This document shows positions 39,929-46,596 of a stretch of 64,000 nt of DNA, piece by piece. Position 1 is the first letter of the stretch; each line of letters starts with the position of its first letter. Source of the stretch: Spirochaetales bacterium (lineage in GTDB: Bacteria > Spirochaetota > Spirochaetia > Treponematales > UBA12059); assembly GCA_016928955.1 (NCBI GenBank), contig JAFGJV010000004.1, forward strand, positions 1 through 64,000, in the 5' to 3' direction. The translations under genes were made by a program, and so were the position numbers. The notes beneath the pieces were generated by a model, which made no database searches, was not told the DNA's origin, and saw nothing but the letters and a program-made list of their open reading frames with translations.

Positions 39929-41536
39929 CTAGAAGGCGGCAACGCAGCCGTCGGTGCGCTTTTCCGTGGCGCCGCATAGCACGCCGGTGCCGTCCCGCCA
40001 TATGATCTGGCCGCGCCCGAACGACCCGGCATCCCTCTCCACCGTGATGTCGTGCCCGCGGGCAAGCAGGGCTTCAACAAGCGAGCTGTCATAGTCGGCC
40101 TCTACCTGCACCGCCAGGCCTTGAGTCCACTGGAAGCGCGGGGCGTCCAGGGCTTCTTGTGGATTGCGGCCGTGTTTCAGGGCGTGGACAAGCACCTGAA
40201 GGTGGCCCTGCGGCTGCATAAAGCCGCCCATCACGCCGAAGGGACCAACGGCCGCGTCGTCCTTGGTGAGGAAACCGGGAATGATGGTGTGGTATGGACG
40301 CTTGCCGGGTTCAAGCATGTTGGGGTGCCCGGCGCGGGTGGAAAAATTGTGCCCGCGGTTGTGCAGGGCTATGCCCGTGCCTGGCACCACGATGCCAGAG
40401 CCAAAGCCCATGTAGTTGCTCTGTATGTACGACACCATGCAGCCGCTGGCGTCCGCAGTGGCCAGGTATACCGTGCCGCCCCGGTCAGGAGAACCGGCCG
40501 CGGGGACCAACGCGCGCTGGCCGATCAGCGAGCGTCGTTCCGCAAGGTAGCCTGGATCAAGAAGGCTATCAGCCCCGTATGGCATGGCTCCCGGTTCGGC
40601 AACGTAGGCGGCGGCGTCGGCAAAGGCCAGCTTGAGGGCCTCAATCTGGAGGTGGGCTGCCTGGTCTGGCGGCAGGCCGGCAAGATCGTCCGTATCCAGC
40701 ATGCCCAGGGCCATGAGGGCAACGAGTCCCTGCCCGTTGGGCGGTATTTCCCATACCCGGTGGCCCATGAAGTCTACGCCGACCGGCTCCACCCACTCGG
40801 GCTGAAAGGCGGCCAGGTCGGAGGCGCGCAGGAAGCCGCCGGTAGCGCGGGAGTGCGCGTCAACGAGAGCGGCCAGGCGGCCGCGGTAGAAGGACTCGCA
40901 GGCCGTGTCTGCCAGCTCGCCCAGGGTGGCCGCGTGCTCGGGGCTGTTCCACAGGGAGCCAGCGCGAGGGGCATGGCCGGCAGGAGCGAATACGCGGAAC
41001 CACTCCCTGAACACATCGTCCTTGAGGGCGACGCTATACGCAGCGTGGGCCTTGCCCCAGTACCGGGCGCACACCGGCGATACCGGATAGCCATCGCGCG
41101 CGTAGCGCACGGCCGCCTCAAGGAGGTCGGCAAAGGGCAGGGCTCCGAAACGGCGCGACAGGGCGGACCATGCAGACGGAGCTCCGGGAACGGTAACGGG
41201 CTCCCAGCCGTGCTTGGCTATGAGAGGAGGATCCTGGCGAGCCAGCGCGGCCAGGGATAGCGCCTTGGGCGCCGGGCCCGACGCGTTCAGGCCATACAAT
41301 CGGCCGTCTTTCCATACCAGGGCAAAGGCGTCACCGCCTATGCCGTTGGCCGTGGGTTCCAGCACGGTCAGGGCGGCGGCCGTGGCCACCGCGGCGTCCA
41401 CGGCGTTGCCGCCGCGTTTCAGGACATCAAGGCCGGCCTGGGCAGCCAGCGGCTGGCCGGTGCATACCATGCCGTTCCTGGCATAGACCACGGAGCGGGC
41501 CGAGGGGAATTCGCGCGAGTCGGGGTTGAAATTCAT
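39929..41536 (-). CDS. Gamma-glutamyltransferase family protein
   Basis: GMVCTGQPLAAQAGLDVLKRGGNAVDAAVATAAALTVLEPTANGIGGDAF; IPPNGQGLVALMAL; MGGFMQPQGHLQVLV. Confidence 0.9.
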   Translation of the reverse strand: MNFNPDSREFPSARSVVYARNGMVCTGQPLAAQAGLDVLKRGGNAVDAAVATAAALTVLEPTANGIGGDAFALVWKDGRLYGLNASGPAPKALSLAALARQDPPLIAKHGWEPVTVPGAPSAWSALSRRFGALPFADLLEAAVRYARDGYPVSPVCARYWGKAHAAYSVALKDDVFREWFRVFAPAGHAPRAGSLWNSPEHAATLGELADTACESFYRGRLAALVDAHSRATGGFLRASDLAAFQPEWVEPVGVDFMGHRVWEIPPNGQGLVALMALGMLDTDDLAGLPPDQAAHLQIEALKLAFADAAAYVAEPGAMPYGADSLLDPGYLAERRSLIGQRALVPAAGSPDRGGTVYLATADASGCMVSYIQSNYMGFGSGIVVPGTGIALHNRGHNFSTRAGHPNMLEPGKRPYHTIIPGFLTKDDAAVGPFGVMGGFMQPQGHLQVLVHALKHGRNPQEALDAPRFQWTQGLAVQVEADYDSSLVEALLARGHDITVERDAGSFGRGQIIWRDGTGVLCGATEKRTDGCVAAF

Positions 41537-41618
41537 GTGGCAAGTATACACGCTCCCAAGCGGCGGGGGGAGAGCGAACTTGCGCATTTTGCTCCAGGCG
41601 GCGATACTCCCTTGCGGC

Positions 41619-42320
41619 ATGGAAACAGGCTTTGAACTGGACATAGGAAGCAAGCTCTATCGGGCAACGGTGGGCGCGGACGGACGCGTGCGCGTTCGGC
41701 CGGAACCGCGAGCCGCCCAGACGGAAGTTCTGGTCCGCTTAGGGCCCGGCGGCGGAACAGTGGCCGCCGGCCAGCATCAAGAGCTTGCGGATACATTCTC
41801 GGACAAGGAGTTCTGGGAAACCCTGGGTGCGGCTGATGCCGACAAGCTGTCGGAGTTGGCGGGTCGGGCCGCCAAGGAAGCAGCATCTGCGGATCCAGGC
41901 GCCAGGACCATGGCCGGGGCGCTTGCCATAGAATTCGCCGTGACGGCGGCCAGGGCGCGCGCGATGGTGTCGGGCATGCGCTGGCGCGAACCGGCTGGCG
42001 TGTGGTCGCTGGACGATGTTGTGCGCTGCATAGAGCTGAACTACAGCCGCAATTTCAGCCTGGAATTTTTCGTGGGCAAGTGCGCCAGCAACACTTCGGA
42101 TTTTTCCAGGCGCTTCAAGGAGAGGGCGGGGTGCCCCCTATTCGAGTACATAAACCGCCAGCGCGTAAAACGGGCGGCGGCCCTGCTCAAGGCAACATCC
42201 AGGCCCATCATCGAGATATCGGAAGCCGTGGGCTATAACAACTTGTCGTTTTTCAACCGCTATTTCCTCCGCATCATGGGCATGAGCCCACGGGATTTCC
42301 GTTTATCCTCCGCAAGATAG
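41619..42320 (+). CDS. AraC-family transcriptional regulator
   Basis: C-terminal double HTH: CIELNYSRNFSLEFFVGKCASNTSDFSRRFKERAGCPLFEYINRQRVKRAAALLKATSRPIIEISEAVGYNNLSFFNRYFLRIMGMSPRDFR. Confidence 0.85.
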   Translation: METGFELDIGSKLYRATVGADGRVRVRPEPRAAQTEVLVRLGPGGGTVAAGQHQELADTFSDKEFWETLGAADADKLSELAGRAAKEAASADPGARTMAGALAIEFAVTAARARAMVSGMRWREPAGVWSLDDVVRCIELNYSRNFSLEFFVGKCASNTSDFSRRFKERAGCPLFEYINRQRVKRAAALLKATSRPIIEISEAVGYNNLSFFNRYFLRIMGMSPRDFRLSSAR

Positions 42321-42463: not shown

Positions 42464-42733
42464 ATGAAGGAACAAGCGGAAAAGGGCGACGCTCGTGTGG
42501 ACTCAGGCAGGGTACAGCTGGACGCCGTGGTGGTGTTGGCGCGATCCGAGCTGAGCCCGGCCGAGGCCGACTCAGCCAGGACCGGGTCTGGCCTGCGCAT
42601 GAAGGCGGCACAGGGAGGCACCGTGTGGCTGGAAGCCGGCGGCGTGACGCTGGCCGAGGGCCGACTGGCCAGGAGAAAGGGCGTTACGTCCTTTGTGGTC
42701 AGCAAGGTATACGGAGAGGAGGCCGGACGATGA
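42464..42733 (+). CDS. Small SpoA/FliN-like protein (divergent)
   Basis: SD GGAGG; VQLDAVVVLARSELSPAEADSARTGSGLRMKAAQGGTVWLEAGGVTLAEGRLARRKGVTSFVVSKV resembles a SpoA domain; first gene of the switch operon. Confidence 0.6.
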   Translation: MKEQAEKGDARVDSGRVQLDAVVVLARSELSPAEADSARTGSGLRMKAAQGGTVWLEAGGVTLAEGRLARRKGVTSFVVSKVYGEEAGR

Positions 42734-42969
42734 AAACGGGAAACGTGAACGACGCTATGGTCAGACTGCAGGTGGTGCTCGGGGAGCGGTGTTTGTCCGT
42801 ACGGGACCTGGGCACCGTGGGCGAGGGCTCCATCGTAAAGCTGGACGCCATAGCCGGCGAGCCCGTGGCCTTGCTGGCCGAGGGACAAACTGTGGCCTGG
42901 GGAGAGGTGGTGGTGCTTGACGAAAATTTCGGCATCAGGGTCACCAAGCTGGACAGGGGCTCGCTATGA
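42730..42969 (+). CDS. Flagellar motor switch protein FliN-like (SpoA domain)
   Basis: VRLQVVLGERCLSVRDLGTVGEGSIVKLDAIAGEPVALLAEGQTVAWGEVVVLDENFGIRVTKL. Confidence 0.85.
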   Translation: MKTGNVNDAMVRLQVVLGERCLSVRDLGTVGEGSIVKLDAIAGEPVALLAEGQTVAWGEVVVLDENFGIRVTKLDRGSL

Positions 42970-44783
42970 GCGCGGGACCAGGTACGGTTTTGCCCCCCTT
43001 TATGGTGGGGCCGCGGGGCAGGGAACCCCTGCCGGAGCGCGTCAAGCTGTACGATTTCCGCCGGCCTGACAAATTCACCAAAGACCAGATCCGCACCATG
43101 CAGATACTGGCCGAGACGTTCGGAAAGCTGGCAGAGACGGCCTTGTCGGCAAAGCTGCGTACCCTGGTGGCCCTGGAGCTGGATACAGTCGACCAGGAGA
43201 CCTACGACGAGTTCACGGCTCCGCTCTGCGCTCCAACCGTGCTGGCAGTGGCGACCATGCGGCCTCTCAAGGGCCAGGCCGTGCTGAGAATCAGCATGGA
43301 CGCGGCTGACGCCATCCTGGAGCGAGCCTTCGGCTCGCAGGATGCGGTTTTGCCCGAGGCGTTGAAACGCGAGCTTACCGACATAGAGTGCGCCAGCATG
43401 GAACGGCTCATGCCTGCCTTCCTGAATCCCCTGGCCAGCGCCTGGGAATTCGCCGGAGCCCTGGAAACGGAGCTGGTGACTCTGGAGACCAATCCGCGCT
43501 TTTGCCAGATAGTGCCTCCGAACGAAATGATCATCATCACATCGTTCAGGCTGAAGGTGGGCGGCTCGGAAGGGCGCCTGGACGTGGTGTATCCCTTCCT
43601 GCTCCTTGAGCCGCTGATATCCAAGCTGTCGGCCAAGTACTGGTACTCGCGCCGAGTGCCCGAGGAAGATCGTCCCCTGGAAGCGACAGCGCGCGCCACG
43701 CGCCTGCCTGCTGAGCTGGTGTGCCCCGCGGGAAAAATCAGCGTGGGCGAGCTGTCGCGCCTGAAGAGGGGTACGGTCATCCCGTTACCCGCCCTGGACC
43801 AGGGCAGAACCGTACTCAGGCTGGGCGGCAGGGTCGTTGCGGTCTGCCCGGGTACGCGGAAGGACGGCGGTGACTGGACGGCGTGCGCCAACGGTAGCCA
43901 CGCGCAACGGCCGAATGGCGAAGGCGACGACACGCCGGCGGCGGTGGCCGCTGGCATCAAGGATGCCCTGTCGTCGCTCAAGTCCGGACTGGCTGAGGCC
44001 GTGGACGGACTGGGGAAGCGCATAGACGAGCTTAAAGGCAGCCAGGAGGACATGGCGGACCGCGTGTTCTACGGCCAGGCAGACGCCCAGGAACGCCGGC
44101 GCCCCTTCCAGGAACTCGGCGGCGCGGATGCCAAGGCTTTGGCCCTGTTCCTGGCCAACGAGAGGGCCCAGCTGTGCGCCCTGGTGTTGTCCCATCTGGA
44201 CGAGGCGGCGGGCGCGCGCGTGTTGCCCTTCCTGCCGGACGCGGCGCAGACGGACATCATACGCCGGGTGGCCCTGTTCGATGGCGCCCCCCAGGACGTG
44301 GTTGCCGAGGTGGACCGCGTGCTCGGCGTCAAGATGGCGGCCATAGAACGGTCCAGGGCCAGCCAGGGCTCCATGGGCCTGTCCAAGGCCGTGGGTATAC
44401 TCAGCCTGGTGCCTCGCGACACGGAGAAGCTGGTCATCGGGACCATGGAAAGCGCCAACGCCGAGCTTGCCGAGAGCATCAAGCGCAACATGTTCGTGTT
44501 CGAGGATATCGTCATACTGGACGACGAATCCGTGGAAGCCGTGCTCAACATGGCTGATAGGCAGGACCTGCTGGTGGCCATGAAGGTCATGGACGACAGG
44601 GAACGCGAGCGGCTGTTTGCCCGCTTTCCGGCGGCCGCGCGGGACGGGCTGCGGGCAGAATACAAGACCCTTGGACGGAAGCGGGTCCGCGAATGCGACG
44701 AGGCGGGCGCCCGCGTGGTGGCCGTCATCAAGGCCCTGGAGGAGGAAGGCCGCATAGGCATACTCCGGGCGGACGAAGGCTGA
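42966..44783 (+). CDS. FliM-FliG fusion flagellar switch protein
   Basis: N-terminal FliM (VKLYDFRRPDKFTKDQIRTMQILAETF..), SpoA-like region (ISVGELSRLKRGTVIPLPALDQGRTVLRLGGRVVAVC), then FliG middle/C domains (DAKALALFLANERAQLCALVLSHLDEAAGARVLPFLPDAAQTDIIRRVALFDG..LAESIKRNMFVFEDIVILDDESVEAVLNMADRQDLLVAMK..). Confidence 0.85.
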   Translation: MSAGPGTVLPPFMVGPRGREPLPERVKLYDFRRPDKFTKDQIRTMQILAETFGKLAETALSAKLRTLVALELDTVDQETYDEFTAPLCAPTVLAVATMRPLKGQAVLRISMDAADAILERAFGSQDAVLPEALKRELTDIECASMERLMPAFLNPLASAWEFAGALETELVTLETNPRFCQIVPPNEMIIITSFRLKVGGSEGRLDVVYPFLLLEPLISKLSAKYWYSRRVPEEDRPLEATARATRLPAELVCPAGKISVGELSRLKRGTVIPLPALDQGRTVLRLGGRVVAVCPGTRKDGGDWTACANGSHAQRPNGEGDDTPAAVAAGIKDALSSLKSGLAEAVDGLGKRIDELKGSQEDMADRVFYGQADAQERRRPFQELGGADAKALALFLANERAQLCALVLSHLDEAAGARVLPFLPDAAQTDIIRRVALFDGAPQDVVAEVDRVLGVKMAAIERSRASQGSMGLSKAVGILSLVPRDTEKLVIGTMESANAELAESIKRNMFVFEDIVILDDESVEAVLNMADRQDLLVAMKVMDDRERERLFARFPAAARDGLRAEYKTLGRKRVRECDEAGARVVAVIKALEEEGRIGILRADEG

Positions 44784-44868: not shown

Positions 44869-46596
44869 ATGGCATACGACTACACGCGCGACACCATAGC
44901 CGATATTCCGGCCCGCGGGGCCCTTTTGTACTGCGATATGCCCGCCCTGGGCATGGCCGGCGGATCGACAATCACCTACAAGGAACTCGAGCTTCAGTCC
45001 AGGCGGGCGGCCGCCCGGCTCATGGCCATGAACGTGCGCACAGGCGACCGGGTATTGATATTGTCTGAGAACCGACCGGAATGGGGCATCGTGTCCTTTG
45101 CGGTGGCCAGGGCGGGAGCAGTGGCCGTGCCCGTGCTCACGGATTTCTCCGCCGACCAGATACGGGCCATCGCCGAGCACTCGGGAGCGACCGTGGCGTA
45201 CGCGTCGTCCAAGCAAGAGGGCAAGCTGGCTGGCCTCGGGCTCCACGTGTTGGCCATCAAGGATCTGTCCAGACTGCCCACCGCGGATGACAGTGGCGTG
45301 GCCTTCATACAGCCAGAGATACGGCCGAGCGACCTTGCGGCCATCGTGTACACGTCCGGCACCACGGGCGCGCCCAAGGGCGTGATGCTTACCCACGCCA
45401 ACTATCTGTCCGACGCCCTTGCCTGTCGTCCCGTTATCAGCCTGCGCACGGACGACGTGGCCCTGTCCATACTGCCTCTGGCCCACACCTACGAGTACAC
45501 CATAGGCTTCCTGATTCCGATGATGAGCGGAGCTTCCGTTCGCTATCTGGACAGGCCGCCGTCCAGCTCCGTGCTTCTGCCGGCTTTGGCGGCCGTGAGG
45601 CCGACCATCGTGCTGTCCGTGCCGCTGGTGATCGAGAAGATATACCGCGCGGCCGTGCAGCCGGGCCTTGAGCGACTGACTCTGTACCGCTCGCCCATGG
45701 CGCGACGCCTGCTTGAGCGCCTGGCCGGAGCCAAGCTCAGGCGGAGCTTTGGAGGGCGCTTGCGCTTCTTTGGCATAGGAGGGGCGCCTTTGGATCCGGA
45801 AGTGGAGCGTTTCCTTCTGTCGGCGCGCTTCCCCTTTGCCATAGGCTACGGACTCACGGAGACTGCGCCCATCATCGTGGCGGCGGCCGTGGGCAAAACC
45901 GGACCGCGGCTTACCGGTACGGCCTTGCCCGGCGCCGATATCGTCATAGCCGACGCAAAACAGGAAGACGGCGGACGCGAGGTGGGCGAGCTCCGCGTAA
46001 AGGGACCTATGGTGTTTTCCGGATACTACAAGGACCCGGCGCGCACGGCGGACGCCTTTGACCAGAACGGATACTTCCGCACGGGCGACCTTGCCAGCCG
46101 CGACGAGGGCGGGCGCATACGCCTGCGGGGCAGGCTGAAGACCATGATCCTTGGTCCAACGGGGGAGAATATCTATCCCGAGGACGTGGAAGCGGTGCTC
46201 AATTCGTCGCCCTGGGTGGCCGAGTCCCTGGTGTACGGCGGGGAGGACGGGCTGGCCGCCCTCATCATGCTCAAGCCCGAGCTGGTCGAGGAGCTGGGCG
46301 CCTGTGTGGTGGACGGCATGAAGGGCGCTGAGAGGGCGGCCGCGCGCTGGGGAGCCGTCATAGGCGCGGCCATCCTGTCGGCGGAGAAATCCGCGGAGAA
46401 GGCCGTGGTCCGCGTGCTGGACGCCGTGAGGAGGGAGACTAACGCCAGGCTGGCCGGTTTTTCCCGCCTGTCCAGGGTGTATGCCCAGACCGAGCCTTTT
46501 GAGAAAACGCCAACGCAGAAAATCAAGCGCTACCTGTACCCCCGCTCTTCTCAAAAAGAGCCTGAGGCACAGGACGCGTCAACCGTCAGCGCTTGA
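44869..46596 (+). CDS. AMP-dependent synthetase / long-chain acyl-CoA synthetase
   Basis: AIVYTSGTTGAPKGVMLTHANY; YGLTETAPI; YFRTGDLASRDEGGRIRLRGRLKTMI. Confidence 0.9.
   Translation: MAYDYTRDTIADIPARGALLYCDMPALGMAGGSTITYKELELQSRRAAARLMAMNVRTGDRVLILSENRPEWGIVSFAVARAGAVAVPVLTDFSADQIRAIAEHSGATVAYASSKQEGKLAGLGLHVLAIKDLSRLPTADDSGVAFIQPEIRPSDLAAIVYTSGTTGAPKGVMLTHANYLSDALACRPVISLRTDDVALSILPLAHTYEYTIGFLIPMMSGASVRYLDRPPSSSVLLPALAAVRPTIVLSVPLVIEKIYRAAVQPGLERLTLYRSPMARRLLERLAGAKLRRSFGGRLRFFGIGGAPLDPEVERFLLSARFPFAIGYGLTETAPIIVAAAVGKTGPRLTGTALPGADIVIADAKQEDGGREVGELRVKGPMVFSGYYKDPARTADAFDQNGYFRTGDLASRDEGGRIRLRGRLKTMILGPTGENIYPEDVEAVLNSSPWVAESLVYGGEDGLAALIMLKPELVEELGACVVDGMKGAERAAARWGAVIGAAILSAEKSAEKAVVRVLDAVRRETNARLAGFSRLSRVYAQTEPFEKTPTQKIKRYLYPRSSQKEPEAQDASTVSA

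Follow-up and report, generated by a model that had tools for sequence, protein, structure and literature searches.

Annotation of the FliM-FliG locus

An open reading frame encoding a protein of 605 aa was found on the forward strand of the window (the whole stretch of 64,000 nucleotides analysed), running without interruption from an ATG at 42966 to a stop at 44783. This agrees exactly with the preliminary description, and neither a stop nor a frameshift separates the two halves of the protein. A linker of about 80 aa, also as described there, lies between the FliM/SpoA part and FliG_M. The features annotated at the locus are listed in Table 1.

Pfam matches above the cut-off were obtained for FliM (PF02154; 162.7 bits, 1.3e-47, cut-off 27), FliG_M (61.7 bits, 7.8e-17, cut-off 25) and FliG_C (86.3 bits, 2.1e-24, cut-off 23.3). 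Both FliG matches fall after residue 385 or so (390–462 and 494–598), and the reported MFVF motif is contained in MFVFED at 509–514. The accompanying SpoA segment (residues 247–294) is degenerate and its FliMN_C match of 18.9 bits is weak, lying below the cut-off of 23.8. The FliF-binding domain FliG_N, previously noted as missing, was not found by Pfam at its proper place in the fusion whereas it is present in both the canonical FliG and the FliG1 of the same genome. In phmmer searches against the PDB, FliM_M matched residues 36–226 (2.2e-30) and T. maritima FliG_MC matched residues 379–602 (1.5e-36). Each half scores below the cut-off of the corresponding NCBIfam whole-protein model, namely 185.3 against 219.6 for the FliM half (TIGR01397) and 164.4 against 226.7 for the FliG half (TIGR00207). 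Over a stretch of 251 residues, the fusion shares about 41% identity with the canonical FliM of its genome.

The AlphaFold2 model of the fusion (10 sequences; mean pLDDT 68, pTM 0.49) was used for single domains and not for their relative placement because its overall confidence is moderate. The Foldseek matches to the modelled domains are solved C-ring structures, including a chain solved with MotAB, with TM-scores of 0.77–0.78 for FliM_M, 0.84–0.87 for FliG_M and 0.80–0.83 for FliG_C. These structural matches are in agreement with the PDB sequence search.

Table 1. Features annotated at the FliM-FliG locus and its flanks.
Feature	Positions	Strand	Evidence
Presumed gamma-glutamyltransferase-like gene (flank)	39929–41653	-	named by eye
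AraC-family regulator, ~233 aa	41619–42320	+	Pfam HTH_18 2.8e-19; AraC-family gene beside cassette in relatives
SpoA1, degenerate SpoA protein, ~89 aa	42464–42733	+	weak Pfam FliMN_C 5e-4; conserved in relatives
SpoA2, FliN-like, 79 aa, keeps GEVVV	42730–42969	+	Pfam FliMN_C 1.4e-18
FliM–coiled coil–FliG_MC fusion, 605 aa	42966–44783	+	ORF, Pfam, PDB phmmer
FliM middle domain, residues 29–221	43050–43628	+	Pfam 1.3e-47; TM-score 0.77–0.78
Degenerate SpoA (FliM_C-like) segment, residues 247–294	43704–43847	+	18.9 bits, under cut-off
Linker helix (coiled coil), residues 324–369, with the invariant Gln360	43935–44072	+	heptad 15/15; one helix in model
FliG middle domain, residues 390–462	44133–44351	+	Pfam 7.8e-17; TM-score 0.84–0.87
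FliG C-terminal domain, residues 494–598, MFVFED 509–514, stator residues altered	44445–44759	+	Pfam, Foldseek, alignment
Presumed AMP-binding acyl-CoA ligase-like gene (flank)	44869–46596	+	named by eye

Gene order and the coiled-coil linker

The conserved unit is a cassette of four genes, namely an AraC-family regulator, SpoA1, the FliN-like SpoA2 and FliM::FliG. The upstream SpoA/FliN-like pair, the AraC-type gene and the coiled-coil nature of the linker are additions to the preliminary description. The start of SpoA1 was chosen from its homologues and that of the AraC-family gene by hand. The FliN-type SpoA domain of SpoA2 scores 67 bits in Pfam (cut-off 23.8), and the protein aligns with FliN over its whole length with the GEVVV motif kept (GEVVI or GEVII in a few). 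ATGA overlaps were observed between SpoA1 and SpoA2 and between SpoA2 and the fusion, and the order of these three genes is kept in related loci; SpoA1 was not detected at the locus of G219. An AraC-family gene adjoins the cassette wherever the flank suffices, upstream in most relatives and downstream in Zod353 (L065), G161 (L121) and G219 (L122). This gene order suggests AraC-type control of the cassette. On either side of the cassette in the window lie what we take to be a gamma-glutamyltransferase-like gene and an AMP-binding acyl-CoA ligase-like gene. These are not considered part of the unit because the flanks differ in other genomes.

The linkers were aligned on an invariant glutamine (Gln360 in the window protein). 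In all fifteen fusions with a recognisable linker, hydrophobic residues occupy positions −22, −18, −14, −11, −7, −4, +3 and +7 from this glutamine and are few elsewhere. This is the pattern of a conserved heptad coiled coil with one stutter, and residues 324–369 form one helix in the AlphaFold2 model.

Residues lost and kept in the fusions

FliG Arg281 and Asp289 meet MotA Glu98 and Arg90 respectively (PMC6700473). The equivalent of Arg281 is present in all 25 canonical FliGs aligned and in none of the 16 fusions covering the site, where it is replaced by Glu (5), Ala (4), Asp (3), Gly (3) or His (1). Position 288 is acidic in only one of the 16 fusions compared to 25/25 canonical FliGs, and position 289 is still acidic in six of the 16. 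The window fusion has Ala at the Arg281 position and Glu at the Asp289 position. Lys264 and Arg297 equivalents are retained, and together with the acidic residues left at position 289 they may allow some residual stator contact. Both hinge elements are also largely kept, as the MFXF hinge is retained in 15 of the 17 fusions (MFVF at 509–512 in the window protein) and the GG linker before ARM-C in most of them.

In the FliM half, the CheY-binding motif LSQxEIDALL is absent from every fusion aligned. A CheC-type phosphatase motif was sought by eye in this half and none was found, and the identification of the FliM half as a CheC-type phosphatase was rejected on this basis. The FliG-binding GGxG motif of FliM reads GSQD in the window fusion. 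In solved complexes GGxG binds the EHPQR motif of FliG (PMC6700473; PMC7355467), and the two motifs are mostly altered together in the fusions: the main group has ERxQ with GA or GS, while the early-branching fusions have GG with EHPQ or ETPQ. G025 is an exception, having GG with ERAQ. These paired changes suggest a FliM-FliG interface that is private to the module. The most distant fusion, in G219 (L122, 5384–7186), shows the opposite pattern to the main group: EHPQ and GG are still there, whereas MFVF has been lost and reads ISRM.

The preliminary description had proposed that the fusion could form an alternative switch. A rotor subunit that truly generates torque, holding FliM and FliG at 1:1 and working with the stator as such a switch, could draw on complete FliM_M, FliG_M and FliG_C folds, the retained Lys264 and Arg297 and private FliN-like partners. 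We nevertheless regard it as improbable and do not favour a rotor that makes torque and responds to CheY, because Arg281 is lost from every fusion covering the site, the 288/289 acidic pair is largely gone and none of the fusions has LSQxEIDALL, while the single flagellar MotA of the genome keeps the canonical partner residues (equivalents of Arg90 and Glu98, aligned by eye to E. coli MotA). The absence of the FliF-binding domain also speaks against this role. That the fusion would fix subunit stoichiometry, a further suggestion of the preliminary description, is plausible.

Another role to be weighed is that of an export or assembly scaffold, an off-rotor platform of FliN/FliM type that would bind FliH–FliI through SpoA2 and tune export or C-ring assembly with no part in rotation. 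Val111–113 of E. coli FliN, which correspond to GEVVV, contact FliH, and in the model of the Borrelia motor the patch is turned towards the FliH spoke (PMC6248999), so the retention of this patch in SpoA2 is consistent with such a platform. The loss of FliF- and stator-binding parts would likewise be expected if rotation were not its job. However, a scaffold for export alone has no evident need for the retained FliG_M, GG and MFVF hinges and FliG_C, and this explanation is considered unlikely.

Distribution, origin and selection

At least 16 distinct genomes, all from Spirochaetota, have homologues that span the same FliM/FliG junction without a stop, with identity down to about 31%. As these are independent assemblies, an assembly artefact or frameshift was rejected, and both the natural occurrence of the fusion and its presence in relatives are confirmed. 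Most of them belong to the window's family, of which about 14 of the 23 sampled members carry a full or partial fusion. One further genome comes from another family of the order (G025) and two come from other families of the phylum (G161 and G219); the fusion is also carried by the MAGs RS_13_41, UBA12037 and Zod_Metabat.353. Its presence is patchy, with nine of the 395 sampled genomes of the phylum having the fusion.

Canonical FliM was matched as well in the genomes that carry the fusion, and the fusion is absent from genomes of the order without a FliM or FliG match. Nineteen sampled genomes of the order, with family code f4 (G031, G034, G037 and others), have no FliM/FliG match and are presumably non-flagellate. 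This co-occurrence bears on a non-motility role, in which the switch-protein folds would have been reused as a sensing or signalling scaffold together with the neighbouring AraC-type protein. The AraC-family gene adjoins the cassette on either side depending on the lineage and the motility-specific residues are lost, as such a role would have it, but the confinement of the fusion to genomes with FliM or FliG and the conservation of the FliG hinge and FliN-type surfaces make it decidedly unlikely.

After removal of two awkward rows, all 17 FliM halves grouped together in the tree (SH-aLRT 98), and for the FliG halves the tree keeping them together has the higher likelihood. A single fusion event is the simplest reading of the origin. 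Recent duplication of the genome's own fliM and fliG was rejected because the fusion falls outside both canonical groups, and an origin from FliG1 was not supported as the two are separate in the tree. The conservation of the fusion within Spirochaetota is evidently old.

Fusion branches are long, often about tenfold the length of the canonical FliM branches. Such branches, the patchy presence and the G219 FliG_C without MFVF are what a decaying paralogue would leave, a switch locus duplicated long ago that is now weakly constrained and has no present function. On the other hand, close fusion pairs have dN/dS values of 0.28–0.35, indicating purifying selection, the junction remains open in at least 16 genomes and the coiled coil and gene order are conserved, which leaves decay very improbable.

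Diverged FliG_C stretches were also observed in large proteins (frames of 523–972 aa) of other Spirochaetota, namely G174:C305, G162:C130, G173:C19, G153:C1 (L171) and G030:C46 (L170). The G030 gene lies about 12 kb from the fliG of that genome.

The ordinary flagellum and a proposed role for the cassette

The source genome (2.87 Mb, 99.5% complete) carries canonical fliG (with FliG_N), fliM, fliY-like, fliF, fliH, fliI, motA, motB and fliP genes on contig C18 and a FliG1-like gene on C8. Flagellins are present, and the FliN function sits in the FliY-like protein. This makes the fusion an addition to an ordinary flagellum with a complete canonical set, in line with the accessory status proposed earlier. 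Only one FliF match and one flagellar MotA were found, and a second flagellar system was rejected accordingly for this genome; there is no second motor for the fusion to serve, as FliF is single and the canonical flagellar operon, which is complete, occurs once. Another putative FliG relative in this genome is a 221-aa protein (G000:C49:708-1370, L077, minus strand) with a FliG_C fragment at aa 31–78 (2.9e-7) and no other Pfam match.

From the architecture, conservation, gene context and residue losses, all read from sequence, we infer a function for the cassette only tentatively. Our preferred reading, a possible one, is that of an accessory C-ring (switch) module that is conditionally expressed, blind to both stator and CheY, and clutch-like in its action on the single motor. 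The AraC-type protein would switch the cassette on, and the fusion and its two SpoA partners would then come together by SpoA pairing and by a FliM_M/FliG_M interface of their own, braced by the coiled coil, whose self-pairing would be a candidate contact only. The assembled units would join or cap the single flagellar rotor by FliG_M/FliG_C stacking and a FliN-type base. Once added, they would not be pushed normally by MotA and would give no answer to CheY-P, and being blind to both they would lower the torque or lock the motor in the manner of a clutch or brake.

Retained in the module are the hinges of FliG, the middle domains of both FliM and FliG and the GEVVV patch of FliN. The fusion no longer has the domain that binds FliF, the motif that binds CheY or the main residues for stator contact. 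Rotor joining is a guess, since a protein lacking FliG_N has no direct FliF anchor, and attachment is the main gap of the mechanism. More doubtful is the fuller version of the accessory-module reading, in which an inducible, self-contained second C-ring protomer with two private SpoA proteins and a private FliM-FliG interface is inserted into or onto the rotor as a stator-blind and CheY-blind clutch.

Comparison with known systems

FliM (PF02154, TIGR01397) shares the fold and sequence of its middle domain with the fusion, which differs in having no CheY-binding N-terminus, an altered GGxG, a degenerate SpoA and a FliG attached behind. FliG (PF14841/PF01706, TIGR00207; FliG1 and FliG2 in spirochaetes) shares FliG_M, the GG linker, the MFXF hinge and the torque-domain fold, whereas the fusion is without FliG_N, has altered stator residues and stands apart from canonical FliG and FliG1 in the tree. 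FliY, FliM/FliN-type architectures and the CheC family likewise place a CheC/FliM-like fold and SpoA in a new architecture. FliY joins its CheC-like part to FliN and not to FliG, unlike the fusion.

Neighbouring rotor proteins have also been joined covalently in the engineered FliF–FliG fusions of Salmonella, E. coli and Vibrio, where the joining is tolerated and can shift the rotation bias (PMC7355467; PMC11481574). Those are laboratory-made and join the MS ring to the C ring, unlike the natural FliM–FliG fusion. A full-text search of the open-licence literature found engineered FliF–FliG and FliM–FliN-type fusions and no natural FliM–FliG fusion, and all the flagellar switches found described there have FliM and FliG as two proteins. 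While the families of the parts are known, it is apparently new, and new to us, that they are covalently combined in nature, joined by a coiled coil, accompanied by private FliN-like partners and deprived of the stator surface. A natural protein of FliM, a coiled coil and FliG_MC shows which neighbours can become linked in evolution, and the paired GGxG–EHPQR changes are a natural experiment on this contact. Should the module enter the motor, it would represent a new form of rotation control, with added rotor units that can be neither pushed by the stator nor switched by CheY.
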